From positions 1,612,001-1,676,000 of the forward strand of contig OX637621.1 of assembly GCA_951802195.1 (NCBI GenBank): 64,000 bases of DNA. The letters run 5' to 3'. This document shows, piece by piece, positions 38,518-49,358 of this stretch (position 1 is the stretch's first letter; each line of letters starts with the position of its first letter). This stretch comes from Tausonia pullulans. Lineage: Eukaryota; Basidiomycota; Tremellomycetes; Cystofilobasidiales; Mrakiaceae. A program made the position numbers and the translations under genes. The notes under the pieces were generated by a model that did no database searches, was not told the DNA's origin, and saw only the letters and a program-made list of their open reading frames with translations.

Positions 38518-38757
38518 ACCAGGCGTCCGAACGACCACCGCCATTCCTCCCTCCCCGACCCTCCTCAGCCTTCAGCCATCGCCATCATCGCCACTGCCAT
38601 CATCACCATCATCCCCTCCGCCACTACCAACATCACCCTCCGCCCACGCCTTTCGACCTTCTCATCCTCTCGTGTCCGTCGGCCGATGCTTGCACCTTGT
38701 AATGGATATGACCATTCCGATCTTATCGTCTGCGATATCGACGAGATCCTTGACCTT

Positions 38758-38763
38758 GAGCTC
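38758..38763. repeat. Left target-site duplication of LINE copy M
   Basis: GAGCTC sits directly against the T run (the complement of the element's A tail) and is repeated at the other end of the element. Six bases is short, so chance cannot be excluded from this copy alone. Confidence 0.6.
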
Positions 38764-38989
38764 TTTTTTTTTGTATTCAAGTCATGAGTTGTCCGTAGAG
38801 GACGAGGCGACCCTATGAGAGATGGCGAGTCAGAGCTAGACAGAGCGGAAGCAAAATAAAAGGAGGTGGAAGGAAAGTAAACGATGAGTATGGACATAGG
38901 CCCATTTGAAAAGGTAAGATATCAAGATGACCAGCTATATTAAGTGATGGCTATGGTCTAACCATACTTCACCACCCCTGTTCTGTGTT

Positions 38990-39118
38990 TCACCCAGGAT
39001 CGATGACGGCGCCGACAGCAGTACCAACCATCTGGACACTGTCACCCTTGCAGGAGCGATCTCGCATGAACACCCTCTGGATGTTCGCCGCGATGATATG
39101 GACATCGTTGTACACCAT
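38990..39118 (-). CDS. Fused remnant of LINE ORF2 (42 residues)
   Basis: The frame begins MVYNDVHIIAANIQRV, resembling the N-terminal strand of a LINE endonuclease. It ends SVQMVGTAVGAVIDPG, which matches the C-terminus of ORF2 in copies A and B (GTAVGAAIDPG before the stop). The start and end of ORF2 have been joined in frame by one large internal deletion of well over 3 kb, judged from usual ORF2 length. It follows ORF1 after about 30 bases. As a 42-residue product it has no expected activity; it may be only a by-product of the deletion. Confidence 0.6.
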   Translation of the reverse strand: MVYNDVHIIAANIQRVFMRDRSCKGDSVQMVGTAVGAVIDPG

Positions 39119-39149
39119 TATTCTTCCATGTCCCCGGCTTCAGCCGAAG

Positions 39150-40970
39150 TCACGAGAGTGCGCTCGATGGGTGTCCAGAAACAAGGCGTGACGAGGATGC
39201 GAGAAGAAGCGAAGGGTGAATTTGGGGCATTGGAGATGAAGGGGGTGGAAATGGGGCTGACGATGGTGACGAGGGAGGTGGGGAGGGGGGTGGATGCTCG
39301 TCAACGACCTGCACCCCGTCCGTATTGCGCGGTGCTTGATCTGAGTGAGAGAGGCCGGCGTGGACAGGAGGTGTAGCCACCTCCATCGTGGCTTCAGTCG
39401 GCCTGTTCAGTGACCTCCTTTTGGATCTGTGTACGAGCTGGTATCCATCCAAGTTTGATCCCGGTTCCACAGGTTGTTGGAGGGGAAGGGGGGGTTCTTG
39501 GATTGGTGCTCGCGCTCTCGCTGGAAGATTTGCCTTCGGACGGCCTGGGCATCGGGCCGGTGGATGAGCGCGCGAGCCGCATCCGCCACACTCTGGAGCG
39601 ATGGGGCATTTGAGGCGAGCGTGCTCCATTGAGCGGCAGTAGTTACAGTACGTCGAGGCTGGTCGAGATGGAGAGTTTGTCGCAGCGCCAGCCTGGATAG
39701 GTTTGAAAATAACATAGTGGTTGACCCAGCCGGGGAACTGCTGAGTGAAGGCATTTACCCTCGGCATCAACTTGGAGCCAGAGAGGTCGAGCAGGACTCT
39801 CACCCGGCCAGTGGGGGCGATGGGTAAGCGGGGGTCGAATTGACGCTGGTAGAGGATGACTCTGTCTCCGGAGGCTTCTACCTGTTTGCGGAACTCCTCC
39901 TCCACTCCCTCGGATTCTTCAAAGTTTACCAGCAGGCCTTCTTGCAGGAAATTGTTTTGAGTATTGTAGCACGCGCGAAACTGAGGTTTCACCCCTCTCC
40001 CATTTAGCCGGAGGGACTGTAGTTGGGCCAGGATATCTTGAGCAGTTTCTCGAGGTTTGACTTGGGGGGGCGTTCTGCCTTCAGGGTCCTTGGAAGGACG
40101 GATCAGGCCACCCATCTGTTCGTCGCACTTGGGAATTGCGAGAGAGATCTCGAGGGGAGTGGTGTCTCGAGGGGCTGAAATGGCTAGACGGTTCCCGCGA
40201 TCGGTAGCCAAGGCTGGGGAGATTGGGGTAGTATCCTGCGGAGGTTGTTGGACGCCTTCGAAGGGGGACCACGACTGGACGCCAGACGAGTCACGCTGCC
40301 TCGCAGCTGAAGTAATAGGAAGAGCCTGTTTGGCAGGTTTCGCATATGAGCAGCCGATGGCGTTCGGCTGGGAGGTCGCGGCGGCACGAGTGTCGGCCGA
40401 GGTGTCGGCGGGGGTCGCCGGCGTGGGCGACGCGGCGCCGGGGACGAAGAGAGATCGTTGAGAGAGTGTCTCCCCGCCTGTAGAGCGAGACGGTCCAAGA
40501 TGCGTCACCTCGGACGTGCGGGATAGAGCGGCACCAAGGTCGCTGATGGCTGAGCTCGACCGAGTGATACAGCCAGCTGAGGGGGCTGCAGGGGTACTGT
40601 GGAGAGGAGAGGGGTAGGAGAGGAGGGCCATGGTGCTGATATGGATGTGGGGCGTGGCAGGGTTGGCAGGAGTAGTAGGGTGGGTGTTATCGGTAGCTTC
40701 GGTAGGCTTGGTAGGGTTGGTAGGGTTGGTGGGATGAGTAGGGGTGCTAGGGTTGGTAGGACTGGTCGGATGGGCAGGAGAGCTGAGGTTGGGTTTATCG
40801 ACGGGCGTTTTGAGGCGTTCGTCGACGTGAGAGGCCGTATTGGAAGCGATTTGGACGATGATGGCCTCGTCCGATGCGCTCTTCCTCTGTGCTGAAGAGG
40901 GAGGGTCTGGAGGATCCTCGGGAACCTTGAGAGCTCCTTGGAATCGCTTGGGGATTGATTCAATAGGCAT
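39150..40970 (-). CDS. LINE ORF1 protein, gag-like with two zinc knuckles
   Basis: An uninterrupted 606-residue frame. The N-terminal third is Pro/Thr/Ser-rich with a PTNPT-type repeat at about residues 65-105. A central folded segment (about 310-430) contains FRACYNTQNNFLQEGLLVNF and GWVNHYVIFKP, typical of the nucleic-acid-binding part of LINE ORF1 proteins. Two CCHC knuckles follow at about 440-475: CNYCRSMEHARLKC and CGGCGSRAHPPARC, each C-x2-C-x4-H-x4-C. The tail is Pro/Ser-rich. ORF1 proteins coat element RNA in the ribonucleoprotein. The intact frame suggests a young insertion or selection on ORF1. The homopolymer-free, A/T-richer codon use differs from the neighbouring host genes. Confidence 0.85.
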   Translation of the reverse strand: MPIESIPKRFQGALKVPEDPPDPPSSAQRKSASDEAIIVQIASNTASHVDERLKTPVDKPNLSSPAHPTSPTNPSTPTHPTNPTNPTKPTEATDNTHPTTPANPATPHIHISTMALLSYPSPLHSTPAAPSAGCITRSSSAISDLGAALSRTSEVTHLGPSRSTGGETLSQRSLFVPGAASPTPATPADTSADTRAAATSQPNAIGCSYAKPAKQALPITSAARQRDSSGVQSWSPFEGVQQPPQDTTPISPALATDRGNRLAISAPRDTTPLEISLAIPKCDEQMGGLIRPSKDPEGRTPPQVKPRETAQDILAQLQSLRLNGRGVKPQFRACYNTQNNFLQEGLLVNFEESEGVEEEFRKQVEASGDRVILYQRQFDPRLPIAPTGRVRVLLDLSGSKLMPRVNAFTQQFPGWVNHYVIFKPIQAGAATNSPSRPASTYCNYCRSMEHARLKCPIAPECGGCGSRAHPPARCPGRPKANLPARARAPIQEPPLPLQQPVEPGSNLDGYQLVHRSKRRSLNRPTEATMEVATPPVHAGLSHSDQAPRNTDGVQVVDEHPPPSPPPSSPSSAPFPPPSSPMPQIHPSLLLASSSRLVSGHPSSALS

Positions 40971-41016
40971 ATGGTAGGGTGATCTGGTTTGACCTGGTGT
41001 GACCTGGTGGTGGTTC

Positions 41017-41022
41017 GAGCTC
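41017..41022. repeat. Right target-site duplication of LINE copy M
   Basis: GAGCTC, identical to the bases against the A tail at the other end of the element. The duplication ends 75 bases before the 5' end of tRNA-Ala(UGC). Confidence 0.6.
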
Positions 41023-41097
41023 GTCGGAAGCCGGCGGGGCAGCGAAGCGGTGCGGTGTCCAATCGACCGTTATCGGCGGATATCTTGTCAAGCCTCC

Positions 41098-41170
41098 GGG
41101 GGTTTAGCTCAGTTGGTAGAGCGTTCGCTTTGCATGCGAAATGTCATGAGTTCGACTCTTATAGCCTCCA
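41098..41170 (+). tRNA. tRNA-Ala(UGC)
   Basis: A 73-base cloverleaf: acceptor GGGGGTT paired with AGCCTCC (two G-U pairs), D arm GCTC/GAGC, anticodon loop TTTGCAT giving UGC, T loop TTCGACT, discriminator A. There is no intron. Confidence 0.92.
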
Positions 41171-41488
41171 TATCCTTTTGCAGCCGGGAAGGTTGGCTTC
41201 GAGGATGGAAGCCAAGCGGGTTCATTTGGAGGTGAAGTGGCCGAGCGAGGACAGCCATTCCCGGCCTAACATACAGCCCGCCCTCTTTGTCCTCATGTCC
41301 CGACAGACAGCGCAGTATGGCATACCGAGCCATGTTACTAGTGTCGATAGCTTCTCCTCTATCTTGGCCCACACTGACGAGGTCGCCGCCGGATGGCAAG
41401 ATAGCGCGCGCACGAGACCGGCGGTCTGGGTGCGGCGCTCGCTACGTTGATTCCGGTTTAGTCCTTTCTCCCGACAAGTCCCTTGTAA
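41171..41488. other. Spacer between tRNA genes
   Basis: About 320 bases without recognisable gene or repeat. Confidence 0.5.
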
Positions 41489-41561
41489 GCCTCGATAGCT
41501 CATCTGGTAGAGCGTACGCCTGAAGAGCGTAAGGTGGCCTGTTCGAGCCAGGCTCGAGGCA
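41489..41561 (+). tRNA. tRNA-Phe(GAA)
   Basis: A 73-base cloverleaf with a perfect acceptor stem GCCTCGA/TCGAGGC, anticodon loop CTGAAGA giving GAA, T loop TTCGAGC and discriminator A. There is no intron. Confidence 0.93.
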
Positions 41562-41953
41562 TCCATTTTGGCGGTGAGACTCGGTGAGACTCGGTGGAGC
41601 TCAGTACAGTCGACCCAAGTCTCTCTTCCGCGTTGGATGGACGAACACGCTTTCACGACCGACCCTCCGCGACCCTCGGACGGCCAGGACGATGGACTGA
41701 GAGACAGATGCCGAGCGGAAGCCTCGTGAAGGCGTCGGGATTGGCCTGGTGCATCTAGCCAGCCAGTGAGCAAGCGGCGCAATCTCAGTAACCCTGTCCT
41801 CGAGCATGGCCATGACTCGCAGCTCGGACTCGGCTTCGACCAACGATCCAAAGCCAAACAAAACCGAAAATAAACCTAAAAACACAACAATAAGACAACA
41901 AAAACACACCAAAAACACAAAAAGTGTCGCCCTCGGTGAAGGGGGCATCCTGC
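41562..41953. other. Spacer between tRNA genes
   Basis: It contains a short GAGACTCGGT duplication near 41577 and an A/C-rich segment at about 41850-41925. No gene is seen. Confidence 0.5.
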
Positions 41954-42026
41954 TGGAGACTATAAGAGTTGAACTCATGACCTTACACATGCTAAGCGTA
42001 CGCTCTACCAACTGAGCTAAATCCCC
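41954..42026 (-). tRNA. tRNA-Ala(AGC)
   Basis: A 73-base cloverleaf on the minus strand: acceptor GGGGATT/AGTCTCC, anticodon loop CTTAGCA giving AGC, T loop TTCAACT, discriminator A. There is no intron. Confidence 0.9.
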
Positions 42027-42351
42027 GAGCAGTCTTCTGTGTTCAACGAACGCCATCGCCACACCAGCTGGCCGTCGCGCCATCTTGCCCGCCCCTGGCA
42101 TTGGGTGGCGGTCGTTCCCTGTTTGCGTCGAGCTCGGCAAGAGTGCAACAGAAGACGTGCATGCTCACTGCTCGCTGGCTGTCCGGGCCATTTCTCTCGA
42201 CCGCAGGTGGCCGCCGTGCGTCGGTAGCGACGGTCACCCCGCGGCCTGCCCGAGCATTGAGCATTGAGCCATAGCAGCAAAAGCGGAGAGCATGAACAGC
42301 GTGAACAGCGTGAACAGCGTGAATAGTCTCTGAGCTGAGGCTCAATCTCTT
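42027..42351. other. Spacer between tRNA genes
   Basis: It holds the 9-base tandem repeat listed separately and otherwise nothing recognisable. Confidence 0.5.
42291..42326. repeat. Short tandem repeat, 9-base unit
   Basis: GTGAACAGC-type unit repeated almost four times, the first and last copies imperfect. Confidence 0.8.
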
Positions 42352-42421
42352 ATCAGGACCGGGAATTGAACCCGGATCTAGGCGGTGTTAACACCTTGTA
42401 CTGACCATTATACGATCCCGA
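42352..42421 (-). tRNA. tRNA-Val(AAC)
   Basis: Minus-strand cloverleaf of 70 bases: acceptor TCGGGAT/GTCCTGA, anticodon stem AGGTG/CGCCT around loop TTAACAC (anticodon AAC), T arm CCGGG/CCCGG with loop TTCAATT. The first pair is U-A and the D arm is short, both unusual for Val, so the structure deserves a covariance-model check. Confidence 0.78.
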
Positions 42422-42637
42422 CTGCGGCCAGAGACGGGAGCCCGGTGCCTGACGATCTTCCATCATCAGCTTTCCGTCTCTCGCCTCGTGCACCGCGTCG
42501 AGACCGACAGCCAGCCTCCTACATGGCAACACCGCTCGCCAGGATGGCCAACAGTTGGCGCCCCTTTCGAAACGGACCTGGGGAGCAGCGCCAACAGCAG
42601 TCTCGCCCATCGGGGGCAACCGCGGCCAAAAACGAAG

Positions 42638-42732
42638 CGCGAGCAGACGGATTCGAACCGACGCACCCAAAGGGCATTGCCTAAACAGCTGTATATAGCA
42701 GGGCAACGGAGTAACCACTGTCCCATACTCGC
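42638..42732 (-). tRNA. tRNA-Ser(GCU) with 13-nt intron
   Basis: Minus-strand class II tRNA: acceptor GCGAGTA/TGCTCGC, anticodon stem TTGCC/GGCAA, long variable arm (CCC TTT GGG stem), discriminator G. The anticodon GCU is followed at position 37/38 by the intron TATACAGCTGTTT. One T-stem pair is mismatched. Total 95 bases equals 82 mature plus 13. Confidence 0.85.
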
Positions 42733-43028
42733 ACCAGTAATGGTCTGAAGGCCAGGACATGAGGTCAACACCAAGTCCCCAGCTATTGACTGCGCGCACA
42801 AAAAGAAGGGCCCCGACTTCTAACTAGGAGTGGGACGTGGCCGCGACGGGATCCAGCATGCTCCCGCCTCAGTCGTCCCGTTCCTGTTGGGACTAGCAAG
42901 CATGGTGAAGAATGAACGGCCGCTCAGCCTCCAGTATGCCGTGCCCACCGCTCCCTCTCGCCGCTCCCTCTCGCCACTCTCTCGCCACTCCCTCTCGCCA
43001 CACATCGGCGGCCCAAAAGGAAAACATT

Positions 43029-43128
43029 AGCCCCACGGGGGGGTCGAACCCCCAACCTTCAGATCACCAGTGACGACGATCGTTCCTTGCCTAAGAGTCT
43101 GACGCTCTACCGATTGAGCTAGCAGGGC
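43029..43128 (-). tRNA. tRNA-Lys(CUU) with 27-nt intron
   Basis: Minus-strand cloverleaf: acceptor GCCCTGC/GTGGGGC, D arm GCTC/GAGC, anticodon stem TCAGA/TCTGA, anticodon CUU, T arm GGGGG/CCCCC around TTCGACC. A 27-base intron sits at the canonical 37/38 site. Total is 100 bases. Confidence 0.88.
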
Positions 43129-43208
43129 AAGGACAAACAGCTTGCAAGCCGTGTCATGGCACGTGACCTTGCCGATCTCCCTAACCCTGGACCTGCCTGC
43201 CCAGCCTC

Positions 43209-43214
43209 TGCTTG
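43209..43214. repeat. Left target-site duplication of LINE copy A
   Basis: TGCTTG precedes copy A and is repeated directly after its A tail (43605-43610). It starts 81 bases from the 5' end of tRNA-Lys. Confidence 0.65.
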
Positions 43215-43604
43215 AAGATCGCAGCCCTCGATCCTGTCACGGACGAGGAAATCCGCAAGATCGCGTCCACAATCCGACGGACACTCTGGCAGTCGAGCAC
43301 GAGGTGGATGGCTGGCAGTGGCCAGATGGCTGGTACTGCCCTCGGTGCCGCCATCGATCCTGGGTGAACAGCAGGTCAGGGGTGGAGAAGTATGGCTAGA
43401 CTATAGACCATAGCCACCGCTTGAATTAGCCGGACATTTTGATATCTTACCTTTTTCTAATGGGCCTATATCCATAACCCATCTTTTGTTTTCCTTCCAC
43501 CCCTACTTTCATTTTCGCTTTCCTTCTATCTAGCTACGAATCACCATCTCTCATAGGGTTACCTCGTTCTCTACGTATAACTCATGACTTAAATACAAAA
43601 AAAA
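43215..43604 (+). mobile_element. LINE copy A, 5'-truncated
   Basis: About 390 bases. The first 150 or so keep the last 51 codons of ORF2 in frame (KIAALDPVTDEEIRKIAS to GAAIDPG and stop), followed by the family 3' UTR ending GACTTAAATACAAAAAAAA. The coding part is nearly identical to the end of copy B. Flanking TGCTTG duplications mark the insertion. Confidence 0.88.
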
Positions 43605-45763
43605 TGCTTGTTCTCGGAGATCGCGATCAGATTGCCAACTATCGTCCGATCTCGCTCATCAACGTTGACGCTCGCATTTTCTCCCTTGCCATCAACAGCC
43701 GCCTGCTCACCGTCGTAGACACCCTCATCGACGGGGACCAGACAGGCTTCCTCCCGGGCCGCGACTCGGGTCGCAACATCTCCTCTCTCCAGCTCGCCAT
43801 TGACGACGAAGACCTTTTGCCTGGCGTCCTCGCCCAAGTCGACTTCGAGAAGGCATACGACAGAGTGTCGCACGACTTTGTTGGCCCTTGCCTCCGCCAC
43901 ATGGGGTTCGGCCCACGCGCCGCCGCGTGGATCACCTCAACGATGACCTCTCAGACAGCTCGGCTCATGATCAACGGATGGAGGGGTCAAGCCATCGACA
44001 TCCGGTCTGGTGTCCGCCAGGGCGATCCCGCGGCACCGACGATCTTCGCCCTTCTTCTGGAGCCGCTGGCATGTATGCTCCGCCATCGCCTCCCACCGGC
44101 CAATCCGTCCCCCCTACACGAGCGGAAGGTCCTCCTCTTTGCAGACGATCTCAGTATCCGGTGTCGGACTTGGTCGGAGGTCGACGAGGCGACGGTCTGC
44201 CTCCGACAGTACGAGAAAGCCGCAGCAAGCAAGCTGAACTACCAGAAATCACTCCTCTATCCTCTAGGGTCATGCCGGACGGATGCGCCTACAACGTACC
44301 ACGAATGGCGCGTCCAAACGCTTTCATTCGACTTCCTCGGCGTTCCATGCGGTCGCACGGTCAACGGGCCTGCTCACTGGCGAGAGATCATCGGCAAGCT
44401 GAAGGCTCGTCTTGCTCGCATCCCGATGCACGATCTCCCTCTCCTTGCGCGATGCAACGTCATCAACCAGTACATCTACTCGAAGATCATCTACCTGGAC
44501 CGCTTCCTGCCGTGCCCAGACGATATCCTGACAGACCTCGAGGCAACGGCCTACAAGTCTCTCTACCGATCGAAACACCACGACGTCAGCAGGGAACGTC
44601 TAGAAACCCCTCGAGACCTCGGCGGCTTCGGCTTCACGCCACTCCGCTTCCGGCTCATCAAAGCGCGAGCTCAGTGGGCTGGCGATGTGCTCTTCAGACC
44701 GGAGCTCCCCGCATCGATCCGCATTCGCAAGCGGATCATCCATACCATGAGCCTCGATCCAGAAGCTTATAGAATGCTGACTCGCACCATCTTCAGGGAT
44801 GGAGAGTTCATCAGTGGACCCCGGCCCGCCAATTTCAGCTGGTTAGGCGTATTCCTTTCCCCAGTGGAAGGTCAATGGTTCTTCCCAGCCGTCTGGTGGA
44901 ATGCCATCCCAAGGCTCCAAGGAGCTCTCCCTGCACGATGGCAGGCTTACCTCCGGGCATGGTTCGAAGAAATCAGCTTTGACATGAGCTACTGGAATCA
45001 AAACCGCTGGAGGAACGCTGTCCACTGGATGTCTACGTTCGGTACAGATAGCCAGTTGCGGCTGGGTTTCCTCCCTATCCACACAAACCTCGGCCGGCTG
45101 AACGTTCCTCGTGAGCCCCACGGCGCACACAGTCGTACTCTAGCCAACCGCGACCTCATCATCCCAAAGGGCTGGCAAGACCACTTTCCGGCGCTTACCA
45201 AGATCGATTGGAAGCGGCAGTGGTGCTTGCTCAAGGCCGTGTCCCGAGCGTCGCCCGAAGACGTCGACTTGGCCCAGCGCTTCTCGCTGTACAGTCTTCA
45301 CCCAGGAAAGCACACTGCTGCGCCATTCCTCGCCGACGGAACCGCTACGCCGCACAACAGGTCCAAGCGATGTGCGCTGTGCCTGACGGCCCCCGTGGAG
45401 TCCTTCTTCCACCTCTTCGACGAGCCGTGCCCCGTCGTGCGCGCTATCTGGTCGGCTGCGGCAGCGCGTGCCTCTCCTTCGCTCCCCTCCCATCCTCCCT
45501 CCCTTCAGACGCTCGTCTGCCCGACACCGTCGCCGCCGAGGGCGGTCTTCCTCTTCCACTGCATCTTTGTAGCCCGGACATGGCGATTCGTCCGGAGGCG
45601 GAGGTACAGCAAGATCGCAGCCCTCGATCCTGTCACGGACGAGGAAATCCGTAAGATCGCGTCTACGATCCAGCAGAAACACTGGCAGTCGAGTACGAGG
45701 TGGATAGCTCGCAGGGACCAGATGGATGGAACTGCGGTCGGTGCCGCCATCGATCCTGGGTGA
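43604..45763 (+). CDS. LINE ORF2 C-terminal two-thirds: reverse transcriptase
   Basis: A 719-residue uninterrupted frame starting at the RT domain; the endonuclease part is missing because the copy is 5'-truncated. The RT motifs are in order: NYRPISLINVDARIFSLAIN, DQTGFLPGRDSGRNI, VDFEKAYDRVSHDF (motif A Asp), SGVRQGDPAAPTIFALLLEP (motif B), LLFADDLSI (motif C, FADD) and SFDFLGVP. The thumb/connection follows (RDLGGFGFTPLRF), then a C-terminal CCHC-like motif CALCLTAPVESFFHLFDEPC. No RNase H domain is seen, which fits L1/Tx1-like groups. The first ATG is formed at the junction between the A tail of copy A and target DNA, so it is not the element's own start. Confidence 0.88.
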   Translation: MLVLGDRDQIANYRPISLINVDARIFSLAINSRLLTVVDTLIDGDQTGFLPGRDSGRNISSLQLAIDDEDLLPGVLAQVDFEKAYDRVSHDFVGPCLRHMGFGPRAAAWITSTMTSQTARLMINGWRGQAIDIRSGVRQGDPAAPTIFALLLEPLACMLRHRLPPANPSPLHERKVLLFADDLSIRCRTWSEVDEATVCLRQYEKAAASKLNYQKSLLYPLGSCRTDAPTTYHEWRVQTLSFDFLGVPCGRTVNGPAHWREIIGKLKARLARIPMHDLPLLARCNVINQYIYSKIIYLDRFLPCPDDILTDLEATAYKSLYRSKHHDVSRERLETPRDLGGFGFTPLRFRLIKARAQWAGDVLFRPELPASIRIRKRIIHTMSLDPEAYRMLTRTIFRDGEFISGPRPANFSWLGVFLSPVEGQWFFPAVWWNAIPRLQGALPARWQAYLRAWFEEISFDMSYWNQNRWRNAVHWMSTFGTDSQLRLGFLPIHTNLGRLNVPREPHGAHSRTLANRDLIIPKGWQDHFPALTKIDWKRQWCLLKAVSRASPEDVDLAQRFSLYSLHPGKHTAAPFLADGTATPHNRSKRCALCLTAPVESFFHLFDEPCPVVRAIWSAAAARASPSLPSHPPSLQTLVCPTPSPPRAVFLFHCIFVARTWRFVRRRRYSKIAALDPVTDEEIRKIASTIQQKHWQSSTRWIARRDQMDGTAVGAAIDPG

Positions 45764-45991
45764 CAAGCAGGTCTGGGGTGGGGAAGTATGGCTGGTCCAT
45801 AGCCACTGCTTGATGTAGCTGGTCATCTTAATATCTTACCTCTTTAATGGGCCTATGTCCACACCCATATATTGCTTTCCTTCTACCTGTTCTTTACTTT
45901 CGCTCTCCCTCTATCTGGCTACTACTCGATATCTCTCATAGGGTTACCTCGTTCTCTACGTATAACTCATGACTTAAATACAAAAAAAAAA
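43611..45991 (+). mobile_element. LINE copy B, 5'-truncated, long
   Basis: It starts within the RT domain and ends with the family 3' UTR and A tail. TTCTC appears at both ends (43611-43615 and 45992-45996) and may be its target duplication, but five bases is weak. It abuts copy A directly, as if two insertions used the same site upstream of tRNA-Lys. Confidence 0.85.
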
Positions 45992-46421
45992 TTCTCCCGC
46001 CTCTGGCTCGACTTAGGGCTCGCTCGGCGGGCTTCCACACGATCGTGAGGTCGAAGAAGTGGCAGGTGGTAGGTAGAGCACGGCCCCGCCGCCGCGCAGG
46101 TATGCCTGCCACACGACCGGTCTTCGTCCGTCATTGGAGCCGACGTGAGGCAGCAGACACGTTGAACCAGCCAAAAGCGCACTCGATGATGATGACGGAA
46201 CGAGGTGGAAAGACGTCAGTCAGGGCCATGCTAGTCTGCGGTCTCAACACCCTACACCACCACCATTACCGCCATCACCACCGCCATCACTATCACCATC
46301 GCCATCACTACCACCACCAACCCCCACCCCCCGCGAAGCCCTGCTCCGACCCTGGCCGCTCTTTCTCATCTTGACTCGCCCAACCATTACTCGGCCGCTG
46401 CGAATCAAAACGCAAAAAGGT
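45992..46421. other. Spacer with CAN-repeat low-complexity DNA
   Basis: This lies between LINE copy B and tRNA-Asn. The segment 46253-46330 is an imperfect CAC/CAT trinucleotide repeat. No gene is seen. Confidence 0.55.
46253..46330. repeat. Imperfect (CAN)n trinucleotide repeat
   Basis: About 78 bases made almost only of CAC, CAT and CGC triplets. Confidence 0.85.
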
Positions 46422-46494
46422 CTCTCAGCGACGGGTTCGAACCGTCGACCTACAGATTAACAGTCTGACGCTCTACCAACTGAGCTAGCCGAGA
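46422..46494 (-). tRNA. tRNA-Asn(GUU)
   Basis: Minus-strand 73-base cloverleaf: acceptor TCTCGGC/GCTGAGA, anticodon loop CTGTTAA giving GUU, T arm GACGG/CCGTC with loop TTCGAAC, discriminator G. There is no intron. Confidence 0.92.
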
Positions 46495-46568
46495 GAAGAA
46501 GATGCAGCATCCGATGGTCGTCCTTGTCCTCGTTGCTTGCCTCGACTCCTACGGGATTGCTCATCCAC

Positions 46569-46577
46569 GCGTCTGAC
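46569..46577. repeat. Left target-site duplication of LINE copy D
   Basis: GCGTCTGAC, repeated perfectly right after the A tail at 46801-46809. It begins 75 bases from the 5' end of tRNA-Asn. Confidence 0.85.
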
Positions 46578-46800
46578 TACGGGGTGGGGAAGTATGGCTG
46601 GTGGCCCATAGCCAATGCTTTGTGTATCCAGTCATCTTAATATCTTACCTTTTTCTAATGAGCCTATATCCATAACCCATCCTTTGTTTTCCTTCCACCC
46701 CTACTTTCATTTTCGCTTTCCTTCTATCTAGCTACGAATCACCATCTCTCATAGGGTTACCTCGATCTCTACGTATAACTCATGACTTAAATACAAAAAA
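46578..46800 (+). mobile_element. LINE copy D, truncated to the 3' UTR
   Basis: 223 bases matching only the 3' UTR of the family, ending in the same GACTTAAATACAAAAAA tail and flanked by a perfect 9-base duplication. The 3' UTR is very close to that of copy A, so the insertion is recent. Confidence 0.9.
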
Positions 46801-46809
46801 GCGTCTGAC
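46801..46809. repeat. Right target-site duplication of LINE copy D
   Basis: Second copy of GCGTCTGAC, directly after the A tail. Confidence 0.85.
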
Positions 46810-47473: not shown

Positions 47474-47590
47474 CTGAAGGATGTTCAGAACAAACTGGAT
47501 CTTGCAGGTTCTCGGCGCTCGCACCTTGTTGATACCACCGTTGAATCCCATTCCGAAACTACATCGGGGCCGATACTGGCCAAAATATAT

Positions 47591-47684
47591 TGATCGGAAT
47601 GGGATTCGAACCCATGCCCGTGAAGACTAGCGAGTTCAGAAGAGAACCTTAAGCTAGCGCCTTAGACCGCTCGGCCATCCGACC
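47591..47684 (-). tRNA. tRNA-Leu(AAG), copy 1, with 14-nt intron
   Basis: Minus-strand class II tRNA: acceptor GGTCGGA/TCCGATC, anticodon stem CTAGC/GCTAG, anticodon AAG, 14-base intron after position 37, long variable arm, T arm ATGGG/CCCAT, discriminator A. It appears identical to copy 2. Confidence 0.92.
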
Positions 47685-47781
47685 ATAGTGTGTATATGTT
47701 CACAACACCCAACGTGGAGTAGTGTCTCGAGCAGCCATCTATGCCAACTATTTTATCTCCTCCCCGCAGTCATGGAAATCT
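47591..47781. repeat. Left arm of inverted repeat carrying tRNA-Leu
   Basis: About 191 bases nearly identical to the reverse complement of 48226-48417 (two mismatches seen at the inner end). It comprises the tRNA and about 97 bases of its 5' flank. Weaker similarity continues about 45 bases inward. Confidence 0.92.
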
Positions 47782-48225
47782 CACAGCTAGCCTGATTCTA
47801 TTTCCCCTTCCTTCCTCATACTGTCTCCCGATTGATCAATGATTTAGATACAAAAAGGAATGCATTCTCTCGCAGCCCCGCGTGAGTTCTTCCTTCCCTT
47901 CAAAACGCTGAGAGACCGCACGCGGGCAGGGGAAAGGGGAGTCGTGAGGCAGCTGACGTGGGCTAGTGCCAGGTCTCTGGATGGTCTGGAAATTGTGTTG
48001 ATGCTGGCGCTATGTCAGGAAATTGCGCACCCGCCATCTCGGTTCTGTGTCAGGCTCTTACAGATTCATCATATAGGCGCAGAGCCTGTGTGGCTGTCAG
48101 ATCAGAACCTCACGGACCCACCATATGACCCACACTCTTTGCTTTCTTGTCCTTCTCAATCCTTCCATTTCTCTCATCCATGACAGCTGGAGGAAAGAAG
48201 GGGAGATAGAATCGGGCCACCTCTA
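47782..48225. other. Spacer of the tRNA-Leu inverted repeat
   Basis: About 444 bases. Near 47840 the string GATTTAGATACAAAAA resembles the LINE tail (GACTTAAATACAAAAA), but no element body is recognisable. No gene is seen. Confidence 0.5.
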
Positions 48226-48417
48226 AGATTTTCATGGCTGCGGGGAGGAGATAAAATAGTTGGCATAGATGGCTGCTCGAGACACTACTCCACGTTGGGT
48301 GTTGTGAACATATACACACTATGGTCGGATGGCCGAGCGGTCTAAGGCGCTAGCTTAAGGTTCTCTTCTGAACTCGCTAGTCTTCACGGGCATGGGTTCG
48401 AATCCCATTCCGATCAG
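48226..48417. repeat. Right arm of inverted repeat carrying tRNA-Leu
   Basis: Mirror copy of the left arm; the repeat stops precisely at the 3' end of the tRNA. Confidence 0.92.
48323..48416 (+). tRNA. tRNA-Leu(AAG), copy 2, with 14-nt intron
   Basis: Plus-strand copy of the tRNA-Leu above, with the same intron and structure. Confidence 0.92.
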
Positions 48418-49358
48418 TTTCTTTTATTTCGAGTCCATTCATTCGGATGAACATTTAAACAGTGCGGGATTGAGCTTCAATTTTCAACGGCGCTTCTCTT
48501 GTCGTCAACGCTTTAACTCAACAGTGACACCTTCTGGCTACTTCTCCAGTTGTTCGCTGAGCTTGAATGTTGCCCTTTGAAATCACCGAATTACTACCAC
48601 CAATCTCCGGCAAGGACGACTCGGACGCTTCCGCTACATCGATGTCCCGGCCACTGCCGACAATTCGTCCCTTCGGGCGCTGATTCCATCCGGTCCGCTA
48701 TCCGGGAGAGAAATATCGATGGGAAAAGGAAAACACGCTGACCATTATTTCCTTTAGTTTTTGGCTTGCTGCTTTTTCGAGAATGCGGGCGAGTTGAGAT
48801 TCCCAAGCGCTCTCTCCCGGGACTGGGGGAGGTGCGCGGATTCCCGAGGCTGACGCAAGACTCTTGTGGCCGTACTTTATATTCCGTGTTACAGGAAGGC
48901 GTCATCCTCAAACAAGGAGACATCACCATTGTTTATAGGAACAGCGGACTCGACTGGTTCCTCTCACAGGGTAGATCTCGGTGATTGTCTGAAAGAACCA
49001 CCACCACCTCCTCATCTCTCCGTCTTCCTTCAAACACGAGAGACCCGCGGCTGGACTCGCAGCAGCTTCCCTCTTGCGTTTCCTATCCATGGCGTTTGCC
49101 TTGGGCAAGTTGGGTGAATTCCGGAGTCGGGAGAATCCGGAGAAGGGGTTCCAAGGACGGGGAGAAGGGCACGAGCGCTCCGGCAACAGCCGCGGCAGGC
49201 AAAGGGGCCTATTTCTCCAAATGGGCCGGCGTCCATTCAATCCCCATCACCCACAACCCCCCATCAACCTCCTTCCCTTCTCTTCCCCTTCCTTCACCCA
49301 AAGACCCCCCATCACCCCCTTCCTCCCACCCCTACACCGTCGCCCATCCATCCATACC
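48417..49358. other. Intergenic upstream of acetyl-CoA synthetase
   Basis: About 940 bases without a credible gene. The last 130 bases are a C/T-rich leader. It presumably contains the promoter of the synthetase gene. Confidence 0.5.

Follow-up and report, generated by a model that had tools for sequence, protein, structure and literature searches.

A LINE and a SINE-like companion placed antisense upstream of tRNA genes in the basidiomycete Tausonia pullulans

How does a retroelement come to stand beside three different tRNA genes at nearly the same spacing and always facing the same way? This question is raised by a 64,000-nucleotide stretch of the Tausonia pullulans genome (hereafter the window, C2:1612001-1676000 of a 23.86-Mb assembly in 21 contigs), where copies of a long interspersed nuclear element (LINE) lie upstream of genes for tRNA-Ala(UGC), tRNA-Lys(CUU), and tRNA-Asn(GUU). 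From the tRNA 5' end to the target-site duplication the spacing is 75, 80, and 73 bases, respectively; the 74 bases given for tRNA-Asn in the original prediction, made from the letters of the window alone, are equally good, the 5' end of this gene being placed at 46495 by ARAGORN and at 46494 by Rfam. The three duplications named there (GAGCTC, TGCTTG, and GCGTCTGAC) are all present and have no sequence in common, and at all three sites the 5' end of the element is directed toward the tRNA gene and its A tail outward. Likewise, the five copies of the window (elements A, B, B2, C, and D) all belong to these three genes, with multiple insertions at the Lys and Asn sites. The analysis makes it highly probable that this LINE inserts by position-set target-primed reverse transcription upstream of tRNA genes, with its ribonucleoprotein (RNP) docked on the RNA polymerase III (Pol III) initiation complex, and that a companion resembling a short interspersed nuclear element (SINE) travels by the same route. 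The position, the orientation, and the independence from a DNA motif can be read directly from the genome, as can the relation to intron length, the duplications, the empty sites, and the repeated insertions.

Placement of the elements relative to tRNA genes

Searching the genome with the 3' untranslated region (UTR) of the element (window 45764-45991), as the original prediction had proposed, gave 59 matches in 39 clusters (the best 40 of 414 candidates were scored). Twenty of these clusters were read, corresponding to 19 places because one locus (L019) mirrors another (L018), and each of them led to a tRNA gene; where the head of the element lay beyond the stretch read, it was reached through a second locus (L011 by L037, both in one stack; L020 by L052; L026 by L076). 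A query of 311 bases from the 5' end of a full-length copy gave 49 matches at 40 copies (the best 40 of 62 candidates were scored), three of them in loci already covered. For the other 37 the 5' flank was read, and in 27 cases a tRNA gene was found inside the 761 bases; the remaining ten (L032, L036, L041, L042, L044, L046, L049, L051, L056, and L059) start directly after the A tail of an element in the same orientation. When these ten stacks were read outward, they ended at genes for tRNA-Met, Asp (common to L036 and L044), Gly, Pro, Glu, His, Phe, and Glu, and L059 at the head of an array on contig C11, whose gene has the anticodon UUA according to ARAGORN; in L041, L044, and L059 the intervening LINE was placed by its reverse transcriptase (RT) match and its two read ends, the body being unread. 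In total, 56 places chosen from the LINE were followed (19 by the 3' UTR and 37 by the 5' end), some of which belong to one stack, and all of them led to a tRNA gene, either directly or via a same-orientation stack, with the element head 42-108 bp upstream of the gene. Random insertion would fall in a given 75-bp antisense strip upstream of a tRNA gene with a probability of about 0.14%, all 897 first-look tRNA candidates being counted as genes.

A further 12 RT-bearing copies were probed in stretches of 261 bases: three reach a tRNA gene (L145; L137, with the element edge set by eye; and L139, with the tRNA recognized by eye), three enter a second element of this family (L134, L136, and L140), and six were uninformative. 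Overall, 54 of 88 LINE-type RT matches have been traced to a tRNA gene; these 88 were hand-picked from 143 according to length and score and may include a few elements of another kind, and two pairs or more (C14:505011/505394 and C19:306796/307017) seem to be single copies. Among the copies traced here, none could be followed to its end without a tRNA gene being met.

The same association is seen from the side of the tRNA genes. The Rfam search, in which 63 genes were scored of the 897 candidates, returned ten genes in loci already covered (seven of them occupied) and 53 whose upstream strips were newly read. At 27 of these 53 an antisense element is present with its near edge 60-120 bp upstream, so that 34 of the 63 are occupied in all, and none of the 53 has a sense element within 130 bp upstream. 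Ten of the 27 are the ten top equal-scoring Rfam matches, one of which was typed as tRNA-Trp; without them, 17 of 43 genes are occupied. In the loci chosen from the element, 68 of 105 tRNAs are occupied, representing 25 anticodon types (by ARAGORN, one by eye), and within 130 bp of these 105 tRNAs the DNA read contains no sense element upstream and no element of either orientation downstream. Both sets together give 93 distinct tRNA genes with an antisense element at a mean distance of 80.2 bp (standard deviation, sd, 14.2; median 80; range 42-120; 90 of the 93 within 55-112 bp), and none of them has a sense element up to 130 bp upstream, which bears out the predicted dependence on position and the fixed orientation. 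Since near edges are BLAST edges, they may be wrong by up to several bases; the 26 heads that start with the exact LINE 5' motif have a mean of 79.7 bp (sd 10.1).

Several conventions define these counts. Neither L019 (mirror of L018) nor L015 (part of the window) was counted, and L105 and L079 repeat L055 and L031. Locus L137, with an edge about 67 bp from tRNA-Leu by eye, is below the BLAST threshold and stands outside the 93; among the tRNA-chosen genes, L089 at 149 bp and L120 at 180 bp were scored as unoccupied. As for the extremes, the 120 bp of L128 depend on a match of 29 bp, a weak sense match of 40 bp being present there at 214 bp as well, and the 42 bp of L074 is a BLAST edge, the first full SINE unit beginning at 111 bp. 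One of the 53 tRNA-chosen genes lies on C21, a contig of 18.8 kb and possibly mitochondrial, and the tRNA-Ile(UAU) of L018 and the tRNA of L139 were read by eye, not by ARAGORN. A helical phasing of the distances, suggested by apparent clusters near 67, 80, and 90 bp, was rejected by a Rayleigh scan over periods of 9-13 bp (41 values, 26 from LINE and 15 from SINE heads, SINE values of 111, 118, and 142 bp being omitted; p about 0.33-0.45).

Target-site duplications of at least 6 bp were found at 11 of the 28 stack heads tested, namely the three of the window, L009 and one in L024 (each with one mismatch), L013, L014, L022, L025, L027, and L028. In addition, a duplicate of the window's tRNA cluster lies in inverted orientation at C2:1730-1735 kb, the compared pieces being 90-97% identical; together with the ordered stacks, it provides natural insertion experiments. 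The empty site of element C is preserved in this duplicate (L091), with a single GCGTCTGAC joined directly to the far flank at tRNA-Asn. Fragment D is present in both cluster copies and starts 86 bp from tRNA-Asn in the duplicate; therefore, D fits the distance before its displacement by C. A joint empty site exists for elements B and B2, whose insertions are 6 bp apart, as their joined outer flanks match C2:1732101-1732284 contiguously over 184 of 184 nt at 96% identity. At tRNA-Leu it is the duplicate (L054) that carries a full-length LINE and both window copies that are empty, and that LINE is flanked distally by an even older, truncated copy that has the same 5' bases (L146). Finally, both cluster copies of tRNA-Ala(UGC) are occupied, with different elements at about 73 and 81 bp.

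Provided that all insertions keep to the distance, the element of a stack that is next to the tRNA must be the younger one. This order has been observed in four stacks, where the element nearer to the tRNA came later: SINE copies interrupt the outer LINE within its first ~15 nt, as in L043, where the LINE start AACCACCACCAGGTC is split and flanked by the duplication CAGGTC, and the same arrangement is found in L038, L023, and L042+L071. By the distance rule, element B would be the younger and B2 the older insertion at tRNA-Lys, pushed outward by B. Head-to-tail LINE arrays also occur, with six RT matches at C2:366-398 kb and four at C11:448-467 kb; a tRNA gene stands at the 5' end of both (L066 and L067), the array interior being mostly deduced from spacing. 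Repeated insertion would offer an explanation for LINE arrays in this genome. Two further arrangements were noted. Behind a tRNA-Met gene (L032+L068, C1:1987680-1989700) there are three consecutive SINE copies, each with the flank GCACCACCAAA, produced either by repeated insertion at one nick or by tandem duplication. On contig C4, the regions 624041-633941 and 636935-646835 (L018 and L019) form a mirror-image duplication of a tRNA-Ile(UAU)/tRNA-Ser region including its SINE-LINE stack.

Anchor of the distance and route of insertion

Many tRNA genes in this genome have introns between the A and B boxes, and tRNA length varies accordingly. No change of the element's distance with this length is seen (slope 0.076, p = 0.25, n = 66), and the spread is smaller for the distance to the tRNA 5' end (sd 11.8 bp) than for that to the B box, which was obtained by adding the tRNA length (sd 26.6 bp). 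Because the distance is indifferent to intron length, the anchor is on the 5' side of the gene, that is, the transcription start, the A box, or what assembles there, and a B-box-anchored ruler is disfavoured. It is at the 5' side of a tRNA gene that TFIIIB sits. As for the DNA itself, no motif was found at the junction, in agreement with the original prediction: in 42 flanks aligned on the junction, the best column reaches 0.20 bits, below the 95% level of shuffled flanks (0.26 bits). Alignment on the tRNA 5' end gives 0.29 bits for the highest of 60 columns, a value without shuffle control. Clustering at 80% identity divides the 90 comparable occupied flanks into 79 groups.

The reading that best fits these data is that the RNP of the LINE docks on the Pol III initiation complex once this is assembled, TFIIIB being the most likely contact. 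This would parallel TRE5-A of Dictyostelium discoideum, a retroelement without long terminal repeats (non-LTR) whose ORF1 protein interacts with TFIIIB subunits, according to the available text of a review (PMC5911963); a contact of the ORF1 or ORF2 protein with TFIIIB or TFIIIC, as proposed in the original prediction, may be supposed here. TFIIIB, itself placed by the A box, would be fixed relative to the tRNA 5' end, and the endonuclease would nick the free DNA just upstream of the initiation complex in one polarity. Target-primed reverse transcription would then insert the element mostly 60-110 bp upstream and in antisense, leaving duplications of 5-10 bp where they are readable. The SINE-like companion would use the route of the LINE, and each new copy would re-set the distance, building ordered head-to-tail stacks.

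The component that sets the distance could also be TFIIIC, Pol III itself, or the edge of an upstream nucleosome instead of TFIIIB, an alternative that we regard as unlikely and still to be reckoned with. B-box mutations impairing TFIIIC abolish the targeting of TRE5-A, and the Ty1 integrase contacts Pol III subunits, as stated in the accessible portions of the same review (PMC5911963). The intron-length test disfavours docking through TFIIIC at the B box; TFIIIC on the A-box side, Pol III, and a nucleosome edge are unaffected by it. A more distant explanation is survivorship, in which the element would insert widely and persist only in a harmless strip upstream of tRNA genes, and in a compact genome the flanks of tRNA genes might plausibly offer such a refuge. 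However, selection is not expected to yield one orientation in 93 of 93 cases together with a 60-110-bp band, nor to place the next element a few bp from the 5' junction of the previous one, and copies whose 5' ends are 99-100% identical show the same pattern as degraded copies, so that survivorship appears very improbable.

Docking on the initiation complex must also be set against an endonuclease that reads a DNA motif upstream of tRNA genes, in the manner of the R1/R2-type or other site-specific LINEs. Other LINEs recognize DNA directly, and the zebrafish element Dewa, of the Tx1 group, is found in a tRNA-Leu spacer and is listed among target-specific elements (PMC3706591); with no junction column above the shuffle level, flanks that are mostly dissimilar, and duplications without common sequence, direct recognition of DNA is hardly credible in the present case. 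Equally, tRNA genes with their LINE might have spread as cassettes by segmental duplication, the association being inherited, and some tRNA clusters are in fact duplicated (the window cluster and C2:1730-1735 kb; L018 and L019; six similar flanks, including that of tRNA-Trp). The chance of this is practically negligible: 79 groups of dissimilar flanks among 90 mean that inheritance by duplication cannot explain the pattern, 25 anticodon types are involved, duplications and truncation points differ from copy to copy, and insertions differ between the duplicated clusters, where the empty sites that have been kept already contradict it.

Some results weigh against insertion set by the Pol III complex and have to be considered together. 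Among the 28 stack heads, eight have a duplication of only 4-5 bp, which may be due to chance, eight have none, and one lacks a readable tail. For element A, the empty site was not found, as only its tRNA-side flank matches in the paralogous cluster. Of the 88 LINE-type RT matches, 22 are untraced, nine are placed by array or spacing only (six in the C2 array, two in the C11 array, and C2:894826), and three just enter another element; in the traced copies, neither random distances nor a mixture of orientations, the pattern that would speak against the original prediction, was seen. About half of the tRNA-chosen genes are free of elements, and the distance is a band with an sd of 10-14 bp, not a single point. 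Besides, one 5S match and two U6 genes have no insertion within about 1.5 kb, three genes being too few for a test; these three, which are over the cut-off, and one weaker U6-like match show only 18-20-nt matches to the element.

The LINE, its SINE-like companion and known tRNA-targeting elements

The LINE is ~5.8 kb long (L023 and L027) and has the order 5' UTR, ORF1, ORF2 (open reading frames 1 and 2), 3' UTR, and A tail. Its 5' UTR is short (a few dozen nt), starting with (C)AACCACCACCAGG. ORF1 has about 628 residues and two CCHC-like knuckles by eye, with no match in Pfam or PDB, and its stop overlaps the ORF2 start as TAATG in the one copy read. ORF2 matches RVT_1 with 88.7 bits and Exo_endo_phos with 21.7 bits (E 2e-4, under its cut-off of 24.5), and its best PDB match is L1 ORF2p (E 6.5e-42, residues 398-850). 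With an endonuclease-like and an RT domain in ORF2, and copies having 5' truncation, an A tail, and a duplication, the element is a LINE of the apurinic/apyrimidinic endonuclease (APE) type. It looks recently active, and 53 of the 88 LINE-type RT matches lie inside an open frame of 1231-1233 residues. Relatives were absent from an IMG/VR search, and protein searches returned one metagenome protein with 37% identity over 96%, all others having at most 30%. A different class of RT matches, of the long terminal repeat (LTR) type, occurs in inverted pairs 10-45 kb apart on C3, C4, C5, C6, C7, C12, C15, C16, and C19 (for example, C6:151453-/162346+ and C7:1326095-/1342950+), and such pairs may mark centromeres.

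The SINE-like companion consists of ~101-bp tandem units at its 5' side followed by the last ~91 nt of the LINE 3' UTR, with 95.6% identity in many copies among the matches listed, and it is found at the same distance upstream of tRNA genes (L012, L014, L018, L022, L023, L025, L030, L032, L038, L043, L049, L066, and others). The common 3' end and A tail and the non-coding nature of the companion (by eye) fit a SINE mobilised by its partner LINE. One copy is predicted to fold as an RNA hairpin array (z -6.8); the sequence GGTTCGACC of its repeat resembles a B box consensus, but it is located inside this array. The 5' ends of LINE (CAACCACCACCAGG) and SINE (CAACCACCATCCCGG) have their first nine bases in common, many full-length LINEs starting after a C, and these bases are perhaps used in 5'-end joining. 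Micro-insertions, each made up of about a dozen nt from the 3' end of the LINE (ACTTAAATAC, in some cases with A's), were also seen by eye at the usual position in L010, L014, L037, and L043, as if reverse transcription were frequently aborted.

By function, the element works like TRE5, being antisense in a narrow band upstream of tRNA genes. The description of TRE5-A/DRE in the parts available of two articles is that of a non-LTR element with ORF1 and an APE-RT ORF2 that occupies a narrow band upstream of tRNA genes, in the orientation opposite to theirs (PMC5911963, PMC5006619), the TRE5 distance being 40-54 bp (PMC5911963). In the basidiomycete the mean distance is about 80 bp, nearly all elements lying beyond that range, and a short 5' UTR and the TAATG overlap are found instead of the A/B/C modules and the -1 frameshift for ORF2 reported for TRE5-A (PMC5911963, in part). 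A SINE-like partner is also present here, and none is mentioned for TRE5 in those texts. Therefore, the LINE is not TRE5 in distance and ORF arrangement, being set apart by comparison with the published description, and no named dictyostelid protein was returned by the homology searches with the LINE protein. Other tRNA-upstream non-LTR elements are NLTR-B of Polysphondylium pallidum, 39-64 bp upstream, and NLTR-A of Dictyostelium purpureum, 2-6 bp upstream (PMC5911963); two elements of this sort are reported to be unrelated to TREs (PMC5006619). NLTR-B and NLTR-A differ from the present LINE in their distances and amoebozoan hosts, and are described in the available part of the review as having an RNase H domain instead of a zinc finger (PMC5911963).

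Among fungi, the tRNA-targeting elements of ascomycete yeasts, Ty1 and Ty3 among them, are LTR elements that use an integrase. They therefore differ from the present LINE in that target-primed reverse transcription is not involved, and their distances are others. The retroelements listed upstream of tRNA genes in these yeasts include Ty1/Ty3, Tj1, Tca8-beta, and Ylt1/Tyl3/Tyl6 (PMC5911963, partial text). Ylli of Yarrowia lipolytica and Zorro of Candida albicans are, like the present element, fungal LINEs with two ORFs and poly(A); the portions available of their descriptions state no tRNA association, and give no identified duplications for Ylli and entry into poly(A) for Zorro3 (PMC5014426, PMC7175516). 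Dewa is listed at one tRNA type, in contrast to the 25 anticodon types and the lack of a motif found here. Table 1 of the 2018 review includes tRNA-targeting non-LTR elements from dictyostelids only (PMC5911963), and no report of a fungal tRNA-targeting LINE was found in a literature search that largely excluded subscription journals.

Taken together, it is reasonably probable that a LINE/SINE pair for which the Pol III initiation complex serves as the ruler has arisen in a fungal lineage, independently of the dictyostelids. Its loci would then be time-ordered records of insertion, the newest by the tRNA gene, and the element's own 5' end would be the landing pad of the next copy, giving rise to arrays. 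Beyond the original prediction, this adds the SINE-like partner at the same sites and the stacks with a younger tRNA-proximal element. Next to Ty1/Ty3 and TRE5 it may represent one more instance of convergence, and with 88 LINE-type RT matches and 53 full-size frames in a basidiomycete, the steering of a LINE endonuclease by the Pol III machinery would be testable in yeast-like cells.

Features of the window

The tRNA genes, elements, and duplications of the three sites are collected in the table. The tRNA-Lys gene is absent from the default ARAGORN output and required a run permitting introns. Elsewhere in the window, the closest named relative of a host kinase is in Mrakia frigida (45% identity over 80%), which points to a basidiomycete yeast, probably from the Cystofilobasidiales.

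Table. Target tRNA genes, LINE copies and target-site duplications in the window (positions of the window)
Feature	Position	Strand	Evidence
GAGCTC target-site duplication of element A, distal	38758..38763
LINE element A: 5' end, ORF1 (39150-40970) and 3' UTR, without ORF2	38764..41016	-
GAGCTC target-site duplication of element A, tRNA-proximal	41017..41022
tRNA-Ala(UGC), target of element A	41098..41170	+	ARAGORN; Rfam 64.8 bits
tRNA-Lys(CUU), 27-nt intron, target of elements B and B2	43029..43128	-	ARAGORN with introns allowed; Rfam
TGCTTG duplication of element B, proximal	43209..43214
Element B: 5'-truncated LINE (ORF2 end, 3' UTR and A tail)	43215..43604	+
TGCTTG duplication of element B, distal	43605..43610
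TTCTC duplication of element B2, proximal	43611..43615
Element B2: 5'-truncated LINE, RT part of ORF2 and complete 3' UTR (45764-45991)	43616..45991	+
TTCTC duplication of element B2, distal	45992..45996
tRNA-Asn(GUU)	46419..46495 (Rfam bounds 46422-46494)	-	ARAGORN, Rfam
GCGTCTGAC duplication of element C, proximal	46569..46577
Element C: LINE 3' UTR fragment and A tail, youngest insertion at tRNA-Asn	46578..46800	+
GCGTCTGAC duplication of element C, distal	46801..46809
Element D: degraded older LINE tail, also in the paralogous cluster	46810..~46880	+

Two minor observations concern the surroundings of these sites. The far flank of element A (window 38643-38763) recurs at ten other places of the genome with 71-78% identity. 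Further along the window, tRNA-Leu(AAG) is present as an inverted pair (47582-47825 and 48182-48425) that is 94% complementary over 244 nt, neither member having a LINE, and its paralog has one.

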